Assembly (NCBI GenBank): GCA_018262815.1
Contig: JADFDN010000016.1
Coordinates: 1 to 37,406, forward strand
Source of the DNA: Thiobacillus sp.
Lineage (GTDB): Bacteria > Pseudomonadota > Gammaproteobacteria > Burkholderiales > Thiobacillaceae
Direction of reading: 5' to 3'
DNA length: 37,406 bases
A program made the translations under genes and the position numbers. This document shows positions 23,383 to 36,483 of the stretch, piece after piece. The first letter of the stretch is position 1. Every line of letters starts with the position of its first letter. The notes under the pieces were generated by a model that searched no databases, was not told the origin of the DNA, and saw nothing but the letters and a program-made list of their open reading frames with translations.

Positions 23383-24357
23383 TCAGTAGCGGATAAAACG
23401 GTGCAGCAAGTCCTTCACGGATCGCGGCACGAAGCGCTGCACCCAGCGGCGCCGCGCAACCTGGGCAACAGGCTTGAGCCCGCCAGAAAAGCCCGGCACG
23501 ACTGCCCGCACTTCAGAGAGCACCGTCTTCAGCTTGGATTCATAGACTTCATATACGGATACGGGCTCAGGACACTCCGAAGTGTAAAAAGTGGACAAGC
23601 GGTCGAAGCTACCGTTGTCCAGCAACTGGAACTGGTGGAAGTGATAAAAAATGAGCGGTGCACCCTGGACTGTTATATTCCCGACCGGGTCCTCACCGAA
23701 TGCATACTGCGCGTAATTCCACGGCGCGATGCCGGCGCCCGGATGCTGGAGAATGTGGCATGAGGGGTAACGGGCCGGCCACTCATCCAGGTATTTCTGA
23801 TCCCCCATGCGGCCTTCTTCGAGTCGGTAGTAGCACCACTCGATGCACTGCTCACGCCAGCGCGACAGGCAGGCCATGCCCTCTTCGTCGCGGCGAAAGC
23901 TCACCCATTCGACGCAGAAGCGGCCGTTGACTTCGCGGTCCTGCAGGCGTGGCGTGAAGCGGTGCTCGATGATAGCAATCGAACTGTCGCCGATCTCGTC
24001 GAACAGGGGCTGCACCGATGAATAGAACAGCAGATCCGCATCCAGATAGGTAATGAAATCGATTTTCGGATTGTTCTGCAGAACATACCACGGCAGACAG
24101 GGCGACAACGTCCAGCAGTATTCAGCGATGCCACGATCTTTCTTGGCCTCGAGCAGAGCCTCGTCTTCCAGATCAGACAGGGGAATGCAACTGATGTGCG
24201 GAAGATCGAGCTTCGTCAGAATGTCCTGCGTCTGCCGGTCCATGCACAGCACATGGACATGTGCATCCGGACAATAGCGCGCAAGGCTCTTCAACATGGC
24301 GACCCCCTTCAACAGGTAGCCGCTGTCGAACAGGGTACAGAAATAGCGTTTTGTCAT
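23383..24357 (-). CDS. GT8-like / nucleotide-diphospho-sugar glycosyltransferase
   Basis: CTLFDSGYLLKGVAMLKSLARYCPDAHVHVLCMD; DxD in FITYLDADLLFYSS; start at MTKRYF gives ATGA overlap with upstream gene. Confidence 0.82.
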   Translation of the reverse strand: MTKRYFCTLFDSGYLLKGVAMLKSLARYCPDAHVHVLCMDRQTQDILTKLDLPHISCIPLSDLEDEALLEAKKDRGIAEYCWTLSPCLPWYVLQNNPKIDFITYLDADLLFYSSVQPLFDEIGDSSIAIIEHRFTPRLQDREVNGRFCVEWVSFRRDEEGMACLSRWREQCIEWCYYRLEEGRMGDQKYLDEWPARYPSCHILQHPGAGIAPWNYAQYAFGEDPVGNITVQGAPLIFYHFHQFQLLDNGSFDRLSTFYTSECPEPVSVYEVYESKLKTVLSEVRAVVPGFSGGLKPVAQVARRRWVQRFVPRSVKDLLHRFIRY

Positions 24358-25157
24358 TGGGTTGTTTTTTGGCATACATAAGTACGAGTTGCAGAGCCAA
24401 CGCCCCCGTGAACCGACTCATCCAGCGTATAGGTTCCGATCAGTTCCAGGCCGCAGGAGGCCAGCAAATCCAGAAACTGCGGCTCGTTGAAATGAATCTC
24501 CACCGTTTCCACTCCATAGGCCTGCTTGCGGTAATACTTGTTCGGCTGCCCCACCACCACCGGGGTACGGTGAAAGATGGCGTACCGACGCGCGACACGT
24601 GCCGTCTCGGCAACTGCAGCCTGGTATTCCGGAATATGCAACAGGCAGCAACCCGAGATCACCACATCGAAAGTATCGCGCCCATAGTTCATGGCCGTGG
24701 CATCTTCGACGTCAAAGCGCAACGCCGGATACTTCTGGCGCGCCAGCGCAATGAAGGCGTCCGAGTAATCACACCCAGCGTATGCCACACCCATACCGGC
24801 GATGTCGAAAACCTCGGAATAAAAGCCGCTGGAGCAGCCCACTTCAAGCACCGACATGCCACGTACGTCAGACGGCAGCGCGCGCAAGGCCCGAGTCATG
24901 ACGTCGAATACATCAACAGGCTCGCCACGCCGATAGGCCAGGAGCTGCTCATCCACCAGTTCGCGCTGTTTCCGGGGCAACTCCTCTGCCTGCCAGGCAG
25001 CGCGCAGACGGCTCGACTCTTCCTCCGCCTCCCCCGCCTTCAACTGTACGTAGTTGGATGAAACCCCGGCAGAGGGGCGCACCCAGCCCAGAATGCGCTT
25101 GAGCAGGGCCTTGAGGCGAGGAAAGCGGTTCAGAAGTGCCCGTACAGACGCGTTCAT
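24354..25157 (-). CDS. Class I SAM-dependent methyltransferase
   Basis: SVLEVGCSSGFYSEVFDIAGMGVAYAGCDYSDAFI; FDVEDATAMNYGRDTFDVVISGCCLLHI. Confidence 0.88.
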   Translation of the reverse strand: MNASVRALLNRFPRLKALLKRILGWVRPSAGVSSNYVQLKAGEAEEESSRLRAAWQAEELPRKQRELVDEQLLAYRRGEPVDVFDVMTRALRALPSDVRGMSVLEVGCSSGFYSEVFDIAGMGVAYAGCDYSDAFIALARQKYPALRFDVEDATAMNYGRDTFDVVISGCCLLHIPEYQAAVAETARVARRYAIFHRTPVVVGQPNKYYRKQAYGVETVEIHFNEPQFLDLLASCGLELIGTYTLDESVHGGVGSATRTYVCQKTTQ

Positions 25158-27132: not shown

Positions 27133-28169
27133 GGCTTTACCACGGGAACGATCTCGACCATCAGGCTATCGCCCCAGCCCAGCGCGTCGATCGAGCGATT
27201 GATCACGGCCAGCGGAAGCATGAGCCCAGCAAGCACGATACGCCGCAGGATACGCCGTACTAACCGGCGTGCCGGTGGCGGCACCGGAACACCCGCCCTA
27301 TCCGCAGGCGGCGTGGACACAGCCCACATCGGCGACGGGGAGCCTCGCGGGATATCGAGCCGATTCGCCCGAAACTGCAACACGGTCCAGAGATTGGGAG
27401 TAACCGTACGAACAGCCTTGATGCGATAGCCGCAGCGAGCTGCCATCTGCGTGAAGTCGCCTCGACTGAAATGGTGCAGGTGGTAAGGCACGTGCCAGTT
27501 GATCCAGCGCACGCCGGAGAGGCGACACCAGAATGACCGGACATTGGGGAACACCAGCACCACGCGCCCGCCGGGCCGCAAGCGGGTGCGCAAACGCTCA
27601 AGCGTCTGGTCCGGATCAGGAACATGCTCGATCACCTGATTAAGCACGACGAGATCAAACCGTTCGCTGGCGAAGGGTTCGTCGAGCAGGCTGCCTATGT
27701 GGACCTGCAGACCCAGTTCGTCTGCGATACGCCGGACATTTGGATCCGCTTCAATGCCTCGTACCTGCGCGCCAATGGCCTGCGCCTCGAGCAGCGACAA
27801 ACCGCTCCCGCAACCGATGTCCAGCATCAACTCGCCTGGGCGCACCGAGTACTGCCCCTGGTTGTCAGTCCCCGTCCACCAACGCCGCAACGGGGCCAGG
27901 CGCGTGACGGCGCGCCTGGCCTCGCGCCGGAGATCTCCTACGTTCACGTGCTTGCGCGGATAGTAGGTGCCGTAGAGTGCCCCCAAGTCTGATTCACCCA
28001 ATCTGGGTGATGTCATGCAATGCCCGCATTGGTCACATCGGACCAGAGCAAAAAGGTCAGGTTGCCCGTACCTGTCGTCGAAGGCCGTCCGCAAGGCAGA
28101 GGCCTTCTGCCCCCCGCATACCGGACAAGCCGGAATGGAAGCGGGGCGAATATTTTCAGCCGTGTTCAT
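27129..28169 (-). CDS. Class I SAM-dependent methyltransferase with N-terminal CxxC zinc-ribbon
   Basis: CPVCGGQ..CDQCGHCMTSPRL; MLDIGCGSGLSLLEAQAIGAQVRGIEADP; LVVLNQVIEHVPDPDQTLERLRTRLRPGGRVVLVFPN. Confidence 0.9.
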   Translation of the reverse strand: MNTAENIRPASIPACPVCGGQKASALRTAFDDRYGQPDLFALVRCDQCGHCMTSPRLGESDLGALYGTYYPRKHVNVGDLRREARRAVTRLAPLRRWWTGTDNQGQYSVRPGELMLDIGCGSGLSLLEAQAIGAQVRGIEADPNVRRIADELGLQVHIGSLLDEPFASERFDLVVLNQVIEHVPDPDQTLERLRTRLRPGGRVVLVFPNVRSFWCRLSGVRWINWHVPYHLHHFSRGDFTQMAARCGYRIKAVRTVTPNLWTVLQFRANRLDIPRGSPSPMWAVSTPPADRAGVPVPPPARRLVRRILRRIVLAGLMLPLAVINRSIDALGWGDSLMVEIVPVVKP

Positions 28170-29680
28170 GTTGCATTTCCTTCAGTAGCGGGCTGGCATA
28201 CTGCTACCAGACGTCCGGCGATCATCGCCGCCGCATCTTCTTGGCTGAAAAATTGGCGCGCCACATCCGGCAGGCTCCTGCGCATGGGTTCAAGCCGTGC
28301 GGGATCGGCGATCACCTCATCGAGGACGCGCCTGGCGTCGGCAATCGACTGCACCTCGATGGCAGCCCCAAGGGAAGCCAGATCTGGCTCGAAGCGGCGC
28401 ATAGCCCCGATGCTGCAAATCAACGGAACAACATTCATGGCCACGGCTTCGAGCAGGACTGTCGAGAAAACGCTCACCACCATTTCAGAGATGGAAATGA
28501 CATTCGCCAACGGCTCGGCCGCGGGATTCGAAAAATAGACGTTCGGGCAGGCGGCGAGCTTTTCTCTCAAAACAGAGGGGAGGGGGTAGCCGGGATGTTC
28601 GCGCACAACAATCTCAACCTGAGGATGAGCGGCCGCAGCCTCGGCAATCAGGCCCACGAATGCATCATAGGCCGCGACGCCAAGCAACGCGCACGGTGCC
28701 TGAAGAAAGAAACTGAACGTTCGGGCGCTGGACGCCGAGCCGCGGGAAAGCGACGCCCCCGCCTGCACGGCATGGCTACCCGTCACCCGGAACTTCTGAT
28801 CCGGATTATGTGGCTTTAGCAGCTGCGCGAAGCGCTCGCCCCACACGAACATTTCCGTGTAGGCCATGTTTCTGAAGCCACTGTGGATATACGGTGACCA
28901 GCCTTGCTGCATGCAGAAACAGGGAATTCCGATCAGTCGGCACGCCTCAGAGGTGATCACATCCAGGGGGGCATTTCCTTCAACGACTAGAACACATTTG
29001 GGCCGCAGTGCCCGAAGCGCCTCCAGCGTCACGTCGGCCTCATGCATCAGCTGGAAGAATTCGGAGAGCGCCAAGGACGAAAAGACTGACCCCAGCGACG
29101 CCCCGCCGGCAGACCAGTTGACAACCGGGTGCCCAGACTGCTTCATTCTGAGACCCAGTTCATGGTCACACGCAGCTAGGTAGGCGAATTCCCCCTCCCC
29201 CAATTTCTGCGTCACTGGTGAGAGGTAAGTGGCAAATTTGGCGTTGACCACGTGGATCAGGATGTCGTGGTCCGGACCAGATTGCCGCCCTTCTGCACGG
29301 CGCCCCCTAAGCCTGCTGCGCAGCCATCCATAAACTTGTCTTGCGACCAGATGCAATCGCCTCCCGATCCTGCGACCTGGGCGAACCGCTGGCGCATTCA
29401 AGCCTGGAAGAAAAGCCGCGATATCAGACTCCAGGGCACTCAAGGCCGGAAACTGCAGCGATGGCGCCCCATGGCCAGACAGCGCAAGATAACTCTGGAA
29501 TAACGCCTCGGAATTGATGCACTGGATGTAGAGTCGCCGCTCCACGGCATACCTCAGCTGCATCCCCCTGTAGAGGAATGCATCGGGTCGACGCTGCACC
29601 GCGTCAGCGGTGTAGCGCTCTATTGCGCCGCACAGGCCACGCGTGTAGTCAAAACCGTGGCTCCCAAAATCAATGGCCAT
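28166..29680 (-). CDS. Uncharacterised GT-B-like surface-carbohydrate protein; candidate CMP-nonulosonate transferase
   Basis: CVLVVEGNAPLDVITSEACRLIGIPCFCMQQGW; EMFVWGERFA; EIVVREHPGYPLPSVLREKL (HP motif); SVFSTVLLEAVAMNVVPLICS (S/T motif). Start reset to 29680. Confidence 0.75.
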   Translation of the reverse strand: MAIDFGSHGFDYTRGLCGAIERYTADAVQRRPDAFLYRGMQLRYAVERRLYIQCINSEALFQSYLALSGHGAPSLQFPALSALESDIAAFLPGLNAPAVRPGRRIGRRLHLVARQVYGWLRSRLRGRRAEGRQSGPDHDILIHVVNAKFATYLSPVTQKLGEGEFAYLAACDHELGLRMKQSGHPVVNWSAGGASLGSVFSSLALSEFFQLMHEADVTLEALRALRPKCVLVVEGNAPLDVITSEACRLIGIPCFCMQQGWSPYIHSGFRNMAYTEMFVWGERFAQLLKPHNPDQKFRVTGSHAVQAGASLSRGSASSARTFSFFLQAPCALLGVAAYDAFVGLIAEAAAAHPQVEIVVREHPGYPLPSVLREKLAACPNVYFSNPAAEPLANVISISEMVVSVFSTVLLEAVAMNVVPLICSIGAMRRFEPDLASLGAAIEVQSIADARRVLDEVIADPARLEPMRRSLPDVARQFFSQEDAAAMIAGRLVAVCQPATEGNAT

Positions 29681-29691
29681 CGTCGAAGGTT

Positions 29692-31575
29692 TTACAGGAT
29701 GCCCGCGTGGCCGTACTTCTCGAGGCAGCACAGCGCATGGTGTGTTCCCGCGCCATGATTGACATGACCGCTCCATATTTCCGGAACCCAACTGAATTTG
29801 ATTTTTTCCAAGTGACGGAACAAAGCGTCGAAGTCGAGCTCACCCTCGCCGATCTGGACCCCTTCGCCATCGATACCGTGCGCGTCTGAGATATGGAGGT
29901 GACGGATGTAGGGCAAGACGATCTTGGCATAGTCCACCAGGTCCATTCCTGCGAACTTGCAATAAAGCTGGGCGTGACAGATGTCGAAAGTCATGCCCAG
30001 CGAAAGCGATTTGCAGAACGAGGCCATGTCCTGCGGACGCATGTAGCCATACTGGTGCCACTGTCCCCCGAGATACCAGGGCCGCGGTGGCAGGTTCTCG
30101 GGCAGCAGCTCGACGCCATCCAGGTTGATGTCGCGCAGGGTCTTCTCGGCCTTGGCTGTTAGCTCCGCGCAGTCGTAGTTGCCATCCAGCAGGCTCATCC
30201 CGCCCACATGCAGGACGATCTTGGGCTTGACACCTTGGCGGAAGCCCGGCGCCAGCTCACGTGTACGAACAATCGTTTTCTCCAGAATGTCCACGGAGTT
30301 GCGCACCACCTCGACGTTATCCGAACATAGATCGAAGAGATCGCGCCCAATAATCTCCGGGGCATGCATGATCAATGCGGAACTCTCACTCTGGGCCGAC
30401 ACTTCATCGATCACGTCGCGATCCGAGCAGTGGAATTCAATGACGGGAGTCTTGAGTTCCTTGTAGATGTCGAAATCATGGAAGCGGCACTTGACACCCC
30501 AATCCTTCGCGAAGGTGAAATGGGGCCAATCAGCCACCGTGAGTGCCTTTTCGAAATCCTGTTCGGTGATGTAGTCGCTGGCCTTCTTAGCGCGCATCAA
30601 CGTCTTGCCTAGGAACTCGGGCAACCGGTCCGGCGTGATGCCCTTGCCGGGGCTCATGAACTTCAGGTCCTCCAGCCGAATCGCCTCACCCTCCGCAAGA
30701 TCACGCTTGGCTACCAGTGACTTGGCGAACACCTCACGGTTCAACTGCTCGGCCATGGTGATAACCTTCCTGTCCTCACCCAGCATGGTGCGCGTCAATT
30801 GGAGTTGACGCACCAGATCCCTGAACTGATCAGGCGTGAGCGATGCCTTGTGGTCGGGCCCCAGTTGGTGGATGTCGCGGGTGATGTGCTTCTCGATGAT
30901 GGTTGCACCGAGCCCGTGCGCCAGGAGCGAGGCTTGCACACCAAGTTCGTGCCCGGAATAACCAACCATGGGAGCGAGCGTGGAGAGAGTGTGCAGGTAC
31001 CGCAGATTCAATGACTCAGGCGGCGCAGGATAGGTTGACTGGCACAACAACATTGCATAGCGGTTCGTAAAGTTGTCGGCAATGAACTCGGCGGATTTTC
31101 GAATAACCGAGTCGTCCCACATGCCCGTGCTGAAGATGGCTGGGCACTTCAGCTTCCCCAGCGTGTGCGAGATCAACGGCCAGTTGGTAAGGTCGGCCGA
31201 TGAAAACTTGACGGCATCCAGTTCCAGGCCAGCCACAAAGTCGGCCGACATCTGGTCAAACGGCGTCACGATGAAATCGACGGCCAATCGCCGTGCTTCT
31301 GCACGCAATGCCTCAAAGGCCGCGTCACTCAGCTCCAACTCCTTCAACTGGGGTATCAGGTACTGAAATGACCACTCCGCACTGTTCGGATCGTCCAGCA
31401 GCGGTGCGACGTATATTTCTGACAGATTTCTCTTCTGGAACTTGACGGCATCCGCCCCCGCCTGGGCAGCCTCATTCATGAGGTAGAGCGCCTCATCCAA
31501 TGAGCCATTGTGATTGATGCCAATTTCGGCGATAACGTACAGGCCGTCTTTTTCGAGCGACGCGATTCGTGACAT
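29692..31575 (-). CDS. Two-domain protein: NeuB-type nonulosonate synthase + SAF domain fused to a C-terminal xylose-isomerase-like/AP-endonuclease-2 TIM barrel
   Basis: NeuB: YVIAEIGINHNGSLDEAL, ADAVKFQKR, CPAIFSTGM, GYSGHELGVQASLLAHGLGATIIEKHITRD..GPDHKASLTPDQF; SAF: SLVAKRDLAEGEAIRLEDLKFMSPGKGI; TIM barrel (about residues 350-627): LIMHAPE, GVELLPENLPPRPW, MTFDICHAQL, IRHLHISDAHG, VPEIWSGH. Confidence 0.9.
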   Translation of the reverse strand: MSRIASLEKDGLYVIAEIGINHNGSLDEALYLMNEAAQAGADAVKFQKRNLSEIYVAPLLDDPNSAEWSFQYLIPQLKELELSDAAFEALRAEARRLAVDFIVTPFDQMSADFVAGLELDAVKFSSADLTNWPLISHTLGKLKCPAIFSTGMWDDSVIRKSAEFIADNFTNRYAMLLCQSTYPAPPESLNLRYLHTLSTLAPMVGYSGHELGVQASLLAHGLGATIIEKHITRDIHQLGPDHKASLTPDQFRDLVRQLQLTRTMLGEDRKVITMAEQLNREVFAKSLVAKRDLAEGEAIRLEDLKFMSPGKGITPDRLPEFLGKTLMRAKKASDYITEQDFEKALTVADWPHFTFAKDWGVKCRFHDFDIYKELKTPVIEFHCSDRDVIDEVSAQSESSALIMHAPEIIGRDLFDLCSDNVEVVRNSVDILEKTIVRTRELAPGFRQGVKPKIVLHVGGMSLLDGNYDCAELTAKAEKTLRDINLDGVELLPENLPPRPWYLGGQWHQYGYMRPQDMASFCKSLSLGMTFDICHAQLYCKFAGMDLVDYAKIVLPYIRHLHISDAHGIDGEGVQIGEGELDFDALFRHLEKIKFSWVPEIWSGHVNHGAGTHHALCCLEKYGHAGIL

Positions 31576-31586
31576 ATAACCTCGAT

Positions 31587-32591
31587 TTAGTGTGTTGCCG
31601 TGTGATTACCGTCGGTCTGGGCAGCGGCAGAATATTTTTTAATCATTTGCGTGATCAATTCGCGCATCTGTATTTTCGGCGACCACCCAAGCTGCATGAG
31701 CTTCGCTGGGTCACCACATATGTTTGATTGAACCTTGTCGTTTTCACGAAGCAGTTGAGTGCTCACTTCAACGTCGACTTGCAATTGCGCAACCTCACCG
31801 GCCAGTGCAATCAGGTCCGCGATGCGATGCGCCCGCCCCGAGCAGACGTTGTAGACCTCGCCCGCCATACCCGAGAGCAGCAATGTGCGATAGGCCGCGC
31901 AGACATCTTCTATCGCGAGGAAATCGCGCCGGACGGAAATGTTGCCCGCGACGACACGATGCGCGACACCTTCAGCACGATGTCGAGTAGCCTGCGCGAT
32001 CTGTCGGCAAATAGATGGCAGCACGAAGCGGCTATCCTGCGCAGCGCCAGTCACGTTGAACTGCCGGACATGGATGACTGGCAAGCCATGTTGCTGCTGA
32101 TAGTGCAGCCCAATGTGGCGCAGGCTAAGCTTGATCAGGCCATAGTGGTCTCGCGGTCGCGGTGGATGCTGTTCATTGACCGGGTCGTCGTCGAATTCGC
32201 CATACTCTGACGCGGAGCCGATCACTATGATTTTGCCGGTCAGTGGGCGCTGCAACCGCGAGACGGCGTCGAGTACCAGCATCGGCCCATTCAGGTGCTC
32301 ACTAAGCGCACAGTCCAGGTTGCGATTGATTTCGGGGACGAAGGACGAGCCGAGCGAAACGATGATGTCCGTGGGGTTGATCTGTGCGATTAGTTGCGTC
32401 AGCTGCGCGACCGTGGGTGGTAACTGGTGGCAGGGTAGTCCATCAAAGTCGGGATTATTGTAGTTTCGATAGATGCCGGCCACGGGCCAACCCCAGTCAT
32501 CCGCGGCCGCACGCGCAACGGCTGCCGCAATGAAGCCGCTGCCAATCACTAGCAGCCGGCGCTGGGGCGTACCACCTCCCGTAGATATCAT
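31587..32591 (-). CDS. Extended SDR NAD-dependent epimerase/dehydratase/reductase
   Basis: LLVIGSGFIAAAVARAA; IIVIGSASEYGE; DHYGLIKLSL (YxxxK); VRQFNVTGAAQ; DFLAIEDVCAAYRTLL; GEVYNVCSG. Confidence 0.88.
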   Translation of the reverse strand: MISTGGGTPQRRLLVIGSGFIAAAVARAAADDWGWPVAGIYRNYNNPDFDGLPCHQLPPTVAQLTQLIAQINPTDIIVSLGSSFVPEINRNLDCALSEHLNGPMLVLDAVSRLQRPLTGKIIVIGSASEYGEFDDDPVNEQHPPRPRDHYGLIKLSLRHIGLHYQQQHGLPVIHVRQFNVTGAAQDSRFVLPSICRQIAQATRHRAEGVAHRVVAGNISVRRDFLAIEDVCAAYRTLLLSGMAGEVYNVCSGRAHRIADLIALAGEVAQLQVDVEVSTQLLRENDKVQSNICGDPAKLMQLGWSPKIQMRELITQMIKKYSAAAQTDGNHTATH

Positions 32592-33295
32592 CCGACGCTC
32601 CTACTGTGCCTGCTGCGATCAAGCAGCAGCATTTCAGCCAATCTCATGTCCAGCAGCGAGTCGATATCGACCGCAGCTTCTTCATCCATCTTGTAAAGGG
32701 CGATCTTTCCAGAAAGCCGGTTGCCGGTGTCGAGTAGCGCTTGCGGCCGAAATACATAGATTGATCCATTCTCGACGTATTGTGGTTGCATGTCCTGTCG
32801 GCGAGGACGGTTGCGAAAATCGTAGTTCAGCGAGTGCGCGCCGTCGGCGTTTTCGGTCCACAAGAAACGATGGCTGGGTGAAACTGATAAAAGCGAATCG
32901 GCACCCTGCTCAAGCAGGGTCCTGACCGCGCCGTCGATGTCGCCGGTTCGTCGCAGTGGCGAGGTACACTGCAAAAATACCACGAGGTCAGGTAGACGGC
33001 CCGCCTGCGTGCGCAGGGCTTCGATGGCGTGGACCAAGGCCGACTCGGACGTTGCGGCATCGCCGCTGATGTCAGCCGGACGGCGTATCACGGATGCACC
33101 TGCTTCGTAGCTCACTTGAGCGATACGGTCGTCGTCGGTAGATACCACGGCCGACGCTATGCAGCTCGATTGCAGAGCCTGCTCGATCGTGTGGGCCACC
33201 AGCGGCTTACCCGCGAGCGGGTGTACGTTCTTGCCTGGTATGCCTTTTGAGCCGCCGCGCGCGGGGATCAGGGCGATCACGGAACCTGGATTCAT
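32588..33295 (-). CDS. neuA: CMP-N-acylneuraminate (nonulosonate) cytidylyltransferase, NeuA-like
   Basis: VIALIPARGGSKGIPGKNVHPLAGKPLVAHTIEQAL; STDDDRIAQVS; RRPADISGDAATSESALVHAI; LQCTSPLRRTGDID. Confidence 0.93.
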   Translation of the reverse strand: MNPGSVIALIPARGGSKGIPGKNVHPLAGKPLVAHTIEQALQSSCIASAVVSTDDDRIAQVSYEAGASVIRRPADISGDAATSESALVHAIEALRTQAGRLPDLVVFLQCTSPLRRTGDIDGAVRTLLEQGADSLLSVSPSHRFLWTENADGAHSLNYDFRNRPRRQDMQPQYVENGSIYVFRPQALLDTGNRLSGKIALYKMDEEAAVDIDSLLDMRLAEMLLLDRSRHSRSVG

Positions 33296-34809
33296 GGCCT
33301 GCTCACCCTAGCCTGGCTGTTACGCGCAAACCGGTGCCATGCTTTGGCCAACAGGGCACGCCATGTGATTGGCGTATCAACCGGACAGTCCATCACCCGT
33401 GCGATATGGTTTTGCAGTCCCGCGACCTCGCGCCGCGAGATGATGGCCGTGACCTCATCGGCCAGCCCACCCGCAGCCTCACGCAACGGCGTGGCGGCAG
33501 CCTCGCCATCCAGCACAGCCAACAATACCCGTGCACGCACCGCGGCAAAATCCCGCAGCCCTTGGGCCAAGCTCTTTTCCAGATGGGCGCGGGCACTGGC
33601 CATGTTTCCCTGTGCGTACCAATAGTTGCCCGCCACGAAATTGGTGACGCAGTCATCCTCTTGCTGCAGCAGCAGCACTAGCACCGTACGCCGCTCCTGC
33701 TCATTGTCCGCGTAAAAGAAGTTGGACATGGCGGCCAGATAGCGTGGTTCCTGTTCGGACTTCGTTGCCAGTGCGGCTTCGGCGAGTTCACACAGGTCGC
33801 TGTCGAGCCCGAGTTGCATCAGTTCCCCGAGCGCGTTCACCGCAGCTACCGGCATGCTCGGTCCTCCGCCATCTTCGCGCCGGAACACCATCTCGTACGG
33901 GATGGTGTTGAAGTAACCTGCCGGCACCTTGCGGAACGGCGCCACGTGGACCAAGCGCAGCCCCTCATGCAGGTATTGCGAGGCCTGCCGGATCCCGGCT
34001 TTGTCATGCGAATTGAAGGAAACCAGGAGGCCGCCGGGCGCCAGTACCCGGGCAGCCCAGCGGAAGTAGGTGTCCACGGTTTCCAGGTCCATCTCCTGGA
34101 AGCTCATCGTATTGATGATGAGGTCGTAAGGGCCGGCGAGGTTGTCGATGACTGGCGGCAGTCCGAAATTCAGGGTGCCGGCGATCGGCGGGCTGGGTTC
34201 GCCCGGTACGCAGGCGATGAAGCCGGCTTGCCGGCCGGGTAGGCCCAGCGCCAAGCAGGTGCTGGATAGGCATAGGTTCTCAGGCAGGTCGATGACGGTA
34301 TAACTGGCAATGTCGCATGCCTGGTGCAACTGGCTGGCGCAGGCGCCCCAGCCAGCGCCGATTTCGCACACATGCAGCGGTTCCCCTACCTTACCGTGCT
34401 GCGCCTGCAACTGGGTGATACGCCAGGTGGTGCCCGCATTCAGCACGAAACTGGCAGACAAGCAGGTGTCGCCGATGGGATAGACGAGTGGCGCCCCAAG
34501 CACCGGTTCGCGCAGCCGCTCGATGAATCTGGTCGGCGTGAACAACCGGATGCTCTTGCTCACTTCCTCGAATTCGCGACGCTTCTGTTCCGGCGTTGCG
34601 GGACAGGTGTCGCCGATGCCATAGACGAAATTCCCACGGCGAAAGATCAGGAACTCGCGTACATCAGGAAAATTGCGCCGTTCAGCGAAATGCTGGGTCC
34701 AGAAAGACGACACGCGGGCAGCCGGGTGCTGTTCGCACGCCGCGAGGTTTTGTGCCAGATAGGAATGGAAAGCATCCAGCGCCCGGTTGATTTCGTCGCT
34801 GTAGATCAT
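33292..34809 (-). CDS. Putative sugar O-methyltransferase (NanM-like) with C-terminal helical/TPR-like extension
   Basis: VCEIGAGWGACASQLHQACDIASYTVIDLPENLCLSSTCLA; DLIINTMSFQEMDLETVDTYFRWAARVLAPGGLLVSFNSHDKAG; C-terminal Ala/Leu/Glu-rich helical repeats. Confidence 0.78.
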   Translation of the reverse strand: MIYSDEINRALDAFHSYLAQNLAACEQHPAARVSSFWTQHFAERRNFPDVREFLIFRRGNFVYGIGDTCPATPEQKRREFEEVSKSIRLFTPTRFIERLREPVLGAPLVYPIGDTCLSASFVLNAGTTWRITQLQAQHGKVGEPLHVCEIGAGWGACASQLHQACDIASYTVIDLPENLCLSSTCLALGLPGRQAGFIACVPGEPSPPIAGTLNFGLPPVIDNLAGPYDLIINTMSFQEMDLETVDTYFRWAARVLAPGGLLVSFNSHDKAGIRQASQYLHEGLRLVHVAPFRKVPAGYFNTIPYEMVFRREDGGGPSMPVAAVNALGELMQLGLDSDLCELAEAALATKSEQEPRYLAAMSNFFYADNEQERRTVLVLLLQQEDDCVTNFVAGNYWYAQGNMASARAHLEKSLAQGLRDFAAVRARVLLAVLDGEAAATPLREAAGGLADEVTAIISRREVAGLQNHIARVMDCPVDTPITWRALLAKAWHRFARNSQARVSRP

Positions 34810-35651
34810 GCGGCTGGCAAAACGTCAAATTTCTCGTACATGCTTTGGTCGATGCGGTTTTGCGGGAAGTAATAATTGGTCAACGCATAGCGGGTACCCG
34901 CCTTGATCGGCATTCCACGGTGCACCGTGCTGGTATCGACCAGAATCAGCGTGCCAGCAGGCGCGGTATAGGTGATGAGCCGGTCAGGCTCGCTAGTCAG
35001 TATGCGGGCGATGTCTTGGTCGTCGAGGCGGTACTGCATGTACTTCAACTTGGCGGCCTTCATGTCGCCCAGAACGTGCGAACGGCGGTGGGAATCTCGG
35101 ATCATCTGGAAAGGCCCGTTGTCCGGGCCGACATCGGAGAGGTATATGATTGCCTTGAACTGACGCAGGAAAGCATCGCGGTGCCAGCCCTCGCCCGAAC
35201 CCTGGTTACCCGTCATGGCTGGCATGCGTGCCGCAAGCGTGAACGCCGTTCGCGTCGGCTCGCGATTGTAGGCCGAGGCCACCGACGCCAAGACCTCGTC
35301 ATTCGCAAAGCTAGCGATAAGCTGCGACGCGTTGTTGGCCCCGTAGACTCGCTGATCGGCCTTGGCATTGCCATTTACATATTTCGGGTATTCGACAATG
35401 ATCCGATCCACTTCATCGCGCGCCATAGCACAGGCCTCTCGAGGCCAAAAGTCCTGAACGATACAGATTCCTGAGGCTTCCAGATCCGCGAGGTAGCCCT
35501 CACCAGCACCTATCGCCTTGGGGGCCGGCTGGACACTCTGCAGCCAGCTCTCATGCTGCTTGTAGTCATCCAGAGTGGCAAGCATCGGTGCCCAACCTGC
35601 GCCACCGCTCCGAGCCCGCTTGCGTGCCAAATGTGCAAATAATCTCAACAT
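34806..35651 (-). CDS. Phytanoyl-CoA dioxygenase (PhyH)-like Fe(II)/2-oxoglutarate oxygenase
   Basis: GEGWHRDAFLRQFKAIIYLSDVGPDNGPFQMIRDSHR (HxD) and TLILVDTSTVHRGMPIKAGTRYALTNYY (distal H, Arg). Confidence 0.85.
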   Translation of the reverse strand: MLRLFAHLARKRARSGGAGWAPMLATLDDYKQHESWLQSVQPAPKAIGAGEGYLADLEASGICIVQDFWPREACAMARDEVDRIIVEYPKYVNGNAKADQRVYGANNASQLIASFANDEVLASVASAYNREPTRTAFTLAARMPAMTGNQGSGEGWHRDAFLRQFKAIIYLSDVGPDNGPFQMIRDSHRRSHVLGDMKAAKLKYMQYRLDDQDIARILTSEPDRLITYTAPAGTLILVDTSTVHRGMPIKAGTRYALTNYYFPQNRIDQSMYEKFDVLPAA

Positions 35652-35703
35652 TCATTCCACCTTGGCGAGTAGTCACTTTCTTGCCCTATCCATTCCATCA
35701 TGT

Positions 35704-36483
35704 TCAGCTCTTGTCTGAATTGATCTTCCGCAAGACACAGACTGTAAACCAGGTTTCTCGCCAGGCACCGAAGGCATCCACAGGTACGACGTCGTGGGCT
35801 TGCCCAGATCCCTGCCAATTGATCCTGCGCCCCATAATGTCATAACCACTTTCAAGCACCTCGAACTCGCCGGCAGCAGAAAAAAGCGCCACCATGCCCG
35901 TGTGCGAGTAACGGAAATAGTCTCCAGGCGACTCGTGATACCGCGCAGAAAATGGAACGACGGTAATGACGATGCCGCCAGGCTTGAGCAGCTGGGTGAG
36001 ATTACTAGCGGCAACCCACGGGCGCTCGAAATGTTCAAAGACGTTGTTACTGTAGATTGCATCGAACTTTTCCCGGAATTCGGGATGACTACTGACGAAG
36101 CCGGAGGCGCACGCATCGCCAGAAAGCACGCGCTCGTCCGCAGTTGGTGCCAAGTCCATGCCGTAGTAGTTGTACTTTGCCTGAAATCGCGCGAGGTTTA
36201 TTTGATAAAAACCCTCGTTAAACTCAAAGTTCCCCCGGATTCCGAGAAGGTAGGTCAGAGCGCCATCACGTGCCCCTACGTCGAGGAAATTCATATCCTT
36301 CCCCTCGCGTTCGAACAAATGGCGACGAGACACTTCTTCTTTATTGAGGTCAGTACGATAACCAGTGACTGGGATCTCAAAATTTCCGAGCCTTCTTTCC
36401 CTGTCAGCGATGAGCCGAAAATTAGGTTTGAGCTTCGCCCCCAGATAGCGTACCTTCTGAGCAAGCCTGGCTATTGGAATCAT
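35704..36483 (-). CDS. Class I SAM-dependent methyltransferase
   Basis: MNFLDVGARDGALTYLLGIRG; YYGMDLAPT; FDAIYSNNVFEHFERPWVAASNLTQLLKPGGIVITVVPF; start reset to 36483. Confidence 0.85.
   Translation of the reverse strand: MIPIARLAQKVRYLGAKLKPNFRLIADRERRLGNFEIPVTGYRTDLNKEEVSRRHLFEREGKDMNFLDVGARDGALTYLLGIRGNFEFNEGFYQINLARFQAKYNYYGMDLAPTADERVLSGDACASGFVSSHPEFREKFDAIYSNNVFEHFERPWVAASNLTQLLKPGGIVITVVPFSARYHESPGDYFRYSHTGMVALFSAAGEFEVLESGYDIMGRRINWQGSGQAHDVVPVDAFGAWRETWFTVCVLRKINSDKS

Follow-up and report, generated by a model that had tools for sequence, protein, structure and literature searches.

Locus and domain architecture of the fused gene

The window, i.e., the whole stretch of Thiobacillus sp. 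DNA analysed (37,406 nt), carries a gene for a fused nonulosonic acid (NulO) synthase of 627 aa (29692..31575; ATG start, no internal stop); this and all other window features given with coordinates lie on the minus strand. The NeuB catalytic, PEP-condensing barrel (residues 33–269; 30769..31479) was matched by PF03102 (197.5 bits, E = 3e-58) and aligned with Neisseria meningitidis NeuB (4ipi). It is followed by a SAF (antifreeze-like) domain (residues 285–342; 30550..30723; Pfam PF08666, E = 3e-6) and by a C-terminal metallo TIM barrel of the AP_endonuc_2 type (approximately residues 358–623; 29707..30504; PF01261 at residues 390–603, E = 6e-19). All three matches exceeded the curated Pfam cut-offs (69 versus 31 bits for PF01261). 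The single uninterrupted ORF and the order of NeuB, SAF and AP endonuclease 2-type parts described in an earlier note on this DNA are confirmed. AlphaFold modelling, proposed there as a check, gave two confident barrels in the fused protein (whole protein: pLDDT 91.9, pTM 0.75; C-terminal barrel alone: pLDDT 92.8, pTM 0.92).

The protein belongs to the NeuB-type nonulosonic acid synthases (PF03102 and SAF above cut-offs; PEP, metal and acid residues kept) and its C-terminal part to the AP_endonuc_2, xylose-isomerase-like TIM-barrel superfamily (PF01261, TIM-barrel model, PDB matches). N. meningitidis NeuB (SiaC; 1xuu, 4ipi) and Campylobacter jejuni PseI (8h2c) share the NeuB-SAF fold and the PEP/Mn residues with it, but end after SAF, whereas the fused protein adds a barrel. 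It lies outside the N-acetylneuraminate and pseudaminate synthase equivalogs, with 268 bits against a cut-off of 400 for NCBIfam NeuB_NnaB and 183 against 340 for PseI, and with serine in place of a substrate-binding arginine (see below). These scores place the fused protein among the NeuB-family synthases but in neither of the two named classes.

The fused gene is preceded, 11 nt upstream, by an extended SDR gene of the 4,6-dehydratase/epimerase type (31587..32591; PF16363, PF01370). Further upstream are genes for a PseF-like cytidylyltransferase, assigned as CMP-NulO synthetase (32588..33295; PF02348; TIGR03584 at 137.8 bits, below the cut-off of 205.7), a putative sugar O-methyltransferase of the NanM type (33292..34809; TIGR04371 above cut-off) and a PhyH-type dioxygenase (34806..35651; PF05721); neighbours in this tight run from the PhyH to the SDR gene each overlap by 4 nt. 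On the downstream side, a gene for a putative NulO or capsule-type glycosyltransferase (28166..29680, likely ATG at 29680; weak match to NF046086, the BFO_1060 family, below cut-off) is followed by more methyltransferase and glycosyltransferase genes. Two ORFs of the surface-sugar run, 23383–24375 (330 aa) and 35673–36116 (147 aa), gave no Pfam match. The wider window holds genes of the O-antigen-ligase type, for a WbpM-type dehydratase and for a WbpL-type transferase, and is therefore regarded as a surface polysaccharide locus.

No hydrolysing 2-epimerase was detected in those window ORFs that were scanned, as the earlier note had said of the NeuC/LegG type. The sole Epimerase_2 gene found in the strain's own genome (82 % complete) has exosortase genes as neighbours on another contig; the best DegT gene is also on another contig, next to a hexapeptide transferase gene. 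A NeuC/LegG or DegT enzyme encoded elsewhere and serving the locus was considered and set aside in view of these gene contexts, with service in trans possible at 82 % completeness. No aminosugar-pathway genes lie beside the fused gene, and the non-standard NulO route proposed in the earlier note is among the points supported.

Distribution, ancestry and prior description of the fusion

A plasmid protein search returned a full-length homologue from Ensifer canadensis (36 % identity over 98 % of the length). A barrel scan of bacterial genomes yielded 134 relatives, from which 80 loci were kept, spanning Chloroflexota, Deltaproteobacteria, Verrucomicrobia, Thermoanaerobaculia, Planctomycetes, Cyanobacteria, Bdellovibrio-type bacteria and others. 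The frequency of the fusion, which the earlier note had suggested surveying, is high: barrel and NeuB share a single ORF in 77 of the 80 loci, and of the three exceptions L057 and L069 are truncated where the contig stops, whereas in L055 the sequence is spread over two overlapping reading frames. Because the ORF is uninterrupted in 77/80 independent loci, an assembly or frameshift artefact and a chance read-through were ruled out.

The closest relative of the window's barrel is that of Herbaspirillum sp. GW103 (87 % in the barrel). The fused gene did not turn up in any of 35 genomes from the window's genus, as would be expected had it been acquired together with a surface-sugar island. Of 399 genomes sampled from the phylum, 153 had a NeuB-like gene and only 5, including the window's, the fused form. 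A phylogeny of 64 NeuB domains set the fused ones apart from all others by one branch (SH-aLRT 99), and an unfused group was their sister (support 98). The tree points to one origin of the fused NeuB and subsequent wide spread.

The earlier note had taken the architecture to be undescribed, which is not the case. In 2012 Ricaldi et al. reported from Leptospira a NulO synthase whose C-terminus is "endonuclease-like"; they inferred a phosphatase and a phosphorylated route as in animals, and assigned Neu5Ac as the product (PMC3438082). By its published description, the Leptospira interrogans synthase (YP_002104/NP_711794) has the same domain order, NeuB and then an AP-endonuclease-kind domain; the 80 retained loci include no fused Leptospira sequence. 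No biochemical study of a NeuB–barrel fusion was found in the literature searched, and as the sole earlier description found is a prediction, the earlier proposal is not overturned by a solved family of the same architecture. The architecture is already on record from Leptospira as a prediction; added here are the wide single clade, the likely two-metal site and the apparent change in the acceptor site.

The window's CMP synthetase has a homologue in 61 of 81 fused loci; Epimerase_2 is encoded in 4 and DegT in 6 of the 81. The 25 most frequent families of 135 neighbours without other annotation included no HAD phosphatase family. Twenty carrier genomes were searched for acceptor-making enzymes; a true NanE match was present in one, and a recognisable mannose-6-phosphate isomerase in about 17.

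Frequent partners of the fused gene in Chloroflexota are genes for PAPS synthase, short-chain dehydrogenase, BFO_1060-like transferase, methyltransferases and sulfotransferases. A conserved cluster of this phylum (L034, L047, L063 and others) combines PAPS synthase, SDR, CMP synthetase, fused NeuB and BFO_1060-like transferase with a methyltransferase, an aminoacyl-carrier-ligase-like protein, acetyltransferases and, often, sulfotransferases; this composition suggests that the cluster makes a sulfated, decorated nonulosonate.

Acceptor site of the synthase and metal site of the barrel

In the synthase half the PEP, metal and acid residues E17, K45, K123, S126, H209, H230 and D241 are kept relative to N. 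meningitidis NeuB and are invariant in 40 fused relatives; H209 (GYSGH) aligns with the Mn ligand His215 of the N. meningitidis enzyme. The motifs LLCQSTYPAPP and GYSGHELG, called divergent in the earlier note, proved ordinary for the fused clade, in which S180, Y182, P183 and GYSGH vary little or not at all.

A difference was found at Ser308 (30652..30654), which takes the position of Arg314 in N. meningitidis NeuB; G, S or T stands there in 84/84 fused proteins. This arginine lies in the SAF domain and holds the N-acetyl group of ManNAc in position; its alanine mutant is inactive (PMC6795526). As a control, arginine was found at this position in 4/4 unfused loci with both DegT and Epimerase_2 neighbours, and both neighbours occurred at 0/10 unfused non-Arg loci with readable context (the comparison leaves aside L147–149, L152 and L155, where the NeuB gene was missed by a simple gene picker); a DegT gene lies close by at one non-Arg locus, L162. 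Because Arg314 is replaced throughout and the unfused loci behave in this way, the acceptor of the fused family probably has no 2-acetamido group, or the group is held differently. Neu5Ac was assigned as product of the Leptospira synthase, whereas in the family studied here the missing arginine argues against a 2-acetamido acceptor.

Further variants were seen among the unfused and otherwise fused NeuB genes. The unfused sister group (L150, L151, L154, L156, L157) has Asn at the Arg314 position; adjacent genes code for a methyltransferase, a 2-hydroxyacid dehydrogenase and a GT2 protein that weakly matches a nucleotidyltransferase, DegT and Epimerase_2 genes are absent nearby, and these loci are another non-canonical NulO locus. 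A different NeuB fusion of approximately 800–920 aa (L162:6424-8814, L163:7333-9714, L164:4964-7735, L165:4669-7050) has an N-terminal flavin amine-oxidase/UDP-galactopyranose-mutase-like domain before NeuB-SAF (Pfam run on L162–L164) and G or S at the Arg314 position; adjoining it in L162 (3543-5300) is a 586 aa protein in which NeuB is fused directly to a cytidylyltransferase.

The metal site of the barrel was compared with that of endonuclease IV (Nfo), of which we take H69, H109, E145, D179, H182 and H216 to be metal ligands. All six positions are identical, column by column, in the barrel: His404 (MHAPE; 30364..30366), His456 (30208..30210), Glu493 (ENLPP; 30097..30099), Asp531 and His534 (FDICHA; 29983..29985 and 29974..29976) and His561 (HISDA; 29893..29895), respectively. 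Glu599 on the last strand (PEIWSGH; 29779..29781) is probably the counterpart of Glu261, a match that rests on the motif, the alignment itself setting Glu599 opposite Asp266. Five of these residues are kept in 86/86 barrels; His456 and Glu493 are each kept in 79/86, with Asn and Gln, respectively, in the same seven, so that the full seven-ligand set is present in 79/86. The Zn1 and Zn2 ligands of endonuclease IV (H69, H109, E145, D179, H216, E261) thus all have counterparts, that of E261 by motif, and D564 (HISDA) and H604 (PEIWSGH) are also conserved. Of the metal ligands suggested in the earlier note, those in ENLPP, FDICHA, HISDA and PEIWSGH proved conserved; the His of its "DAHG" is not conserved, and H404 and H456 had been missed. 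Loss of catalytic residues from the TIM barrel, which that note had named as an argument against its proposal, was not observed, the putative ligands being kept.

The barrel has the fold of endonuclease IV and agrees with it at seven metal-ligand positions (Zn1, Zn2 and His182), but there is no DNA-repair context here, and the Zn3 pair D229/H231 falls in an alignment gap in the barrel and is not conserved. The nfo model TIGR00587 gave no match in the window's barrel and 17.6 bits in one relative (cut-off 129.7). A mainly structural or allosteric role of the barrel in the synthase, with the metal site retained, would accord with the several unrelated domains to which NeuB proteins are fused elsewhere; it is made highly improbable by 16 positions of putative catalytic type that show little or no variation across 86 sequences from many phyla.

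Seven barrels (L083, L011, L094, L073, L093, L095, L096) carry H456N and E493Q together. The concerted exchange fits two residues that would be ligands of one metal, and these barrels may hold a different metal or catalyse an altered reaction. The same hint of an altered metal site in a subclade could be read in favour of a post-condensation epimerase or isomerase acting on the NulO or a precursor, or of multinuclear-iron oxidative chemistry. Neighbouring dehydrogenases (SDR, Gfo/Idh/MocA), which suggest keto-sugar intermediates, and a weak match of one barrel to RiPP_MNIO_ApyH (E = 1e-3, far below cut-off) point the same way, but the dehydrogenases are not constant neighbours and the similarity to oxidative families is weak; we regard this reading as improbable.

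Fold comparison did not separate an isomerase from a hydrolase, UlaE and endonuclease IV being ranked alike. Foldseek gave similar scores for MJ1311, UlaE, endonuclease IV and tagatose epimerases, and for this reason the fold alone gives no verdict on the chemistry of the barrel. The family profile was more selective against solved structures (MJ1311 6e-17, endonucleases IV 4e-6, UlaE 0.014, tagatose epimerase 0.06). MJ1311 (3wqo) and UlaE/tagatose 3-epimerase, the best profile and fold matches, are stand-alone proteins with at most approximately 20 % identity to the barrel; MJ1311 has motifs much like those of the barrel and is called tagatose 3-epimerase-like in its PDB entry.

The earlier note had proposed that the appended barrel makes or isomerises the sugar substrate. 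A bifunctional protein of NeuB and a metal-dependent TIM barrel with a conserved metal site was supported; the assignment as isomerase or epimerase specifically was not. A sugar(-phosphate) isomerase or epimerase making the six-carbon acceptor for the NeuB half (e.g., of the fructose to mannose type) would agree with the Pfam family and the fold, which are common to tagatose 3-epimerase, UlaE and xylose isomerase, and with the lack of other acceptor-making genes near most loci. The four-ligand E-D-H-E epimerase site of UlaE, Hyi, FrlC and DTE is contained in the barrel (E493, D531, H561, E599), and because of this and the likeness of the MJ1311 motifs the reading keeps a minor share of the weight. 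It is nevertheless unlikely: neither Escherichia coli UlaE nor FrlC requires the conserved H404, H456 and H534, their residues at the positions of endonuclease IV H69/H109/H182 being R/Q/N and Y/H/A, respectively; all isomerase equivalog models scored barrels far below their cut-offs; and an isomerase would be redundant for mannose-6-phosphate, for which most carrier genomes have a source elsewhere.

On the basis of the ligand set and the profile matches to solved structures we lean to the endonuclease IV/MJ1311 side. The site resembles that of a dinuclear metalloenzyme and is closer to the hydrolases than to epimerases with four ligands; removal of phosphate seems a likelier activity for the barrel than sugar isomerisation. 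The AP-endonuclease-2-type superfamily includes other phosphodiesterases, such as CbiR (PMC7733943).

A candidate synthase–phosphatase route

The reading that we prefer, at a probability of roughly 45 %, is that of a bifunctional synthase–phosphatase for a Kdn-like (2-deaminated) nonulosonic acid; its substrate, phosphatase activity and product are all inferred. The NeuB-SAF half would condense PEP with a hexose 6-phosphate devoid of a 2-acetamido group, mannose-6-phosphate being the simplest candidate, to a 9-phospho-nonulosonate, from which the fused two-metal barrel would take off the phosphate. The CMP sugar would then be formed by the neighbouring PseF-like enzyme, and the NulO would be placed on O-antigen or exopolysaccharide by the downstream transferase. 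In the Kdn operon of Bacteroides thetaiotaomicron a synthase acts on mannose-6-phosphate and is accompanied by a separate HAD phosphatase and a CMP-Kdn synthetase; if the model is right, the logic would be the same, with the fused metallo-barrel in place of the separate HAD phosphatase.

Counted in favour of the synthase–phosphatase were the endonuclease IV-type ligand set and the profile matches of the barrel, the replaced Arg314, the frequent CMP-sugar synthetase and rare Epimerase_2 and DegT genes at the fused loci, the lack of HAD among the commonest families of otherwise unannotated neighbours, the mannose-6-phosphate isomerase of most of the 20 carrier genomes, and the phosphatase reading of the same architecture by Ricaldi et al. 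(PMC3438082). A general route through ManNAc-6-phosphate and Neu5Ac-9-phosphate was disfavoured because of the near absence of true NanE from the carrier genomes and the missing Arg314. Counted against the synthase–phosphatase were the non-conserved Zn3 pair, the similar motifs of MJ1311, the equal ranking of UlaE and endonuclease IV in the structure search, and the seven H456N/E493Q barrels, which are otherwise conserved. No phosphate-binding site was identified in the barrel, and the Arg314 argument draws on one characterised enzyme class and has a discordant case in L162 with its nearby DegT gene.

Bacterial CMP-nonulosonates are made by the NeuC route and by the Leg/Pse aminosugar routes. 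More tentatively, the cross-phylum clade may constitute a third bacterial route, from central sugar phosphates, in which an endonuclease-IV-like two-metal barrel would have turned into the sugar-9-phosphatase of a fused Kdn-type synthase.

Judged by its homologues, the fused enzyme is a widespread family, previously predicted from Leptospira. If the proposed function is true, a sugar-phosphate phosphatase would be added to the reactions of the AP-endonuclease-2 fold, and many environmental bacteria (Chloroflexi, Deltaproteobacteria, Rhizobiales and others) would make sialic-acid-like sugars without neuC, legBCG or pseBCG. Surveys that predict nonulosonates by these markers would then miss or misassign them, and part of the nonulosonic acids known from granular sludge and other biofilms could be due to this family.
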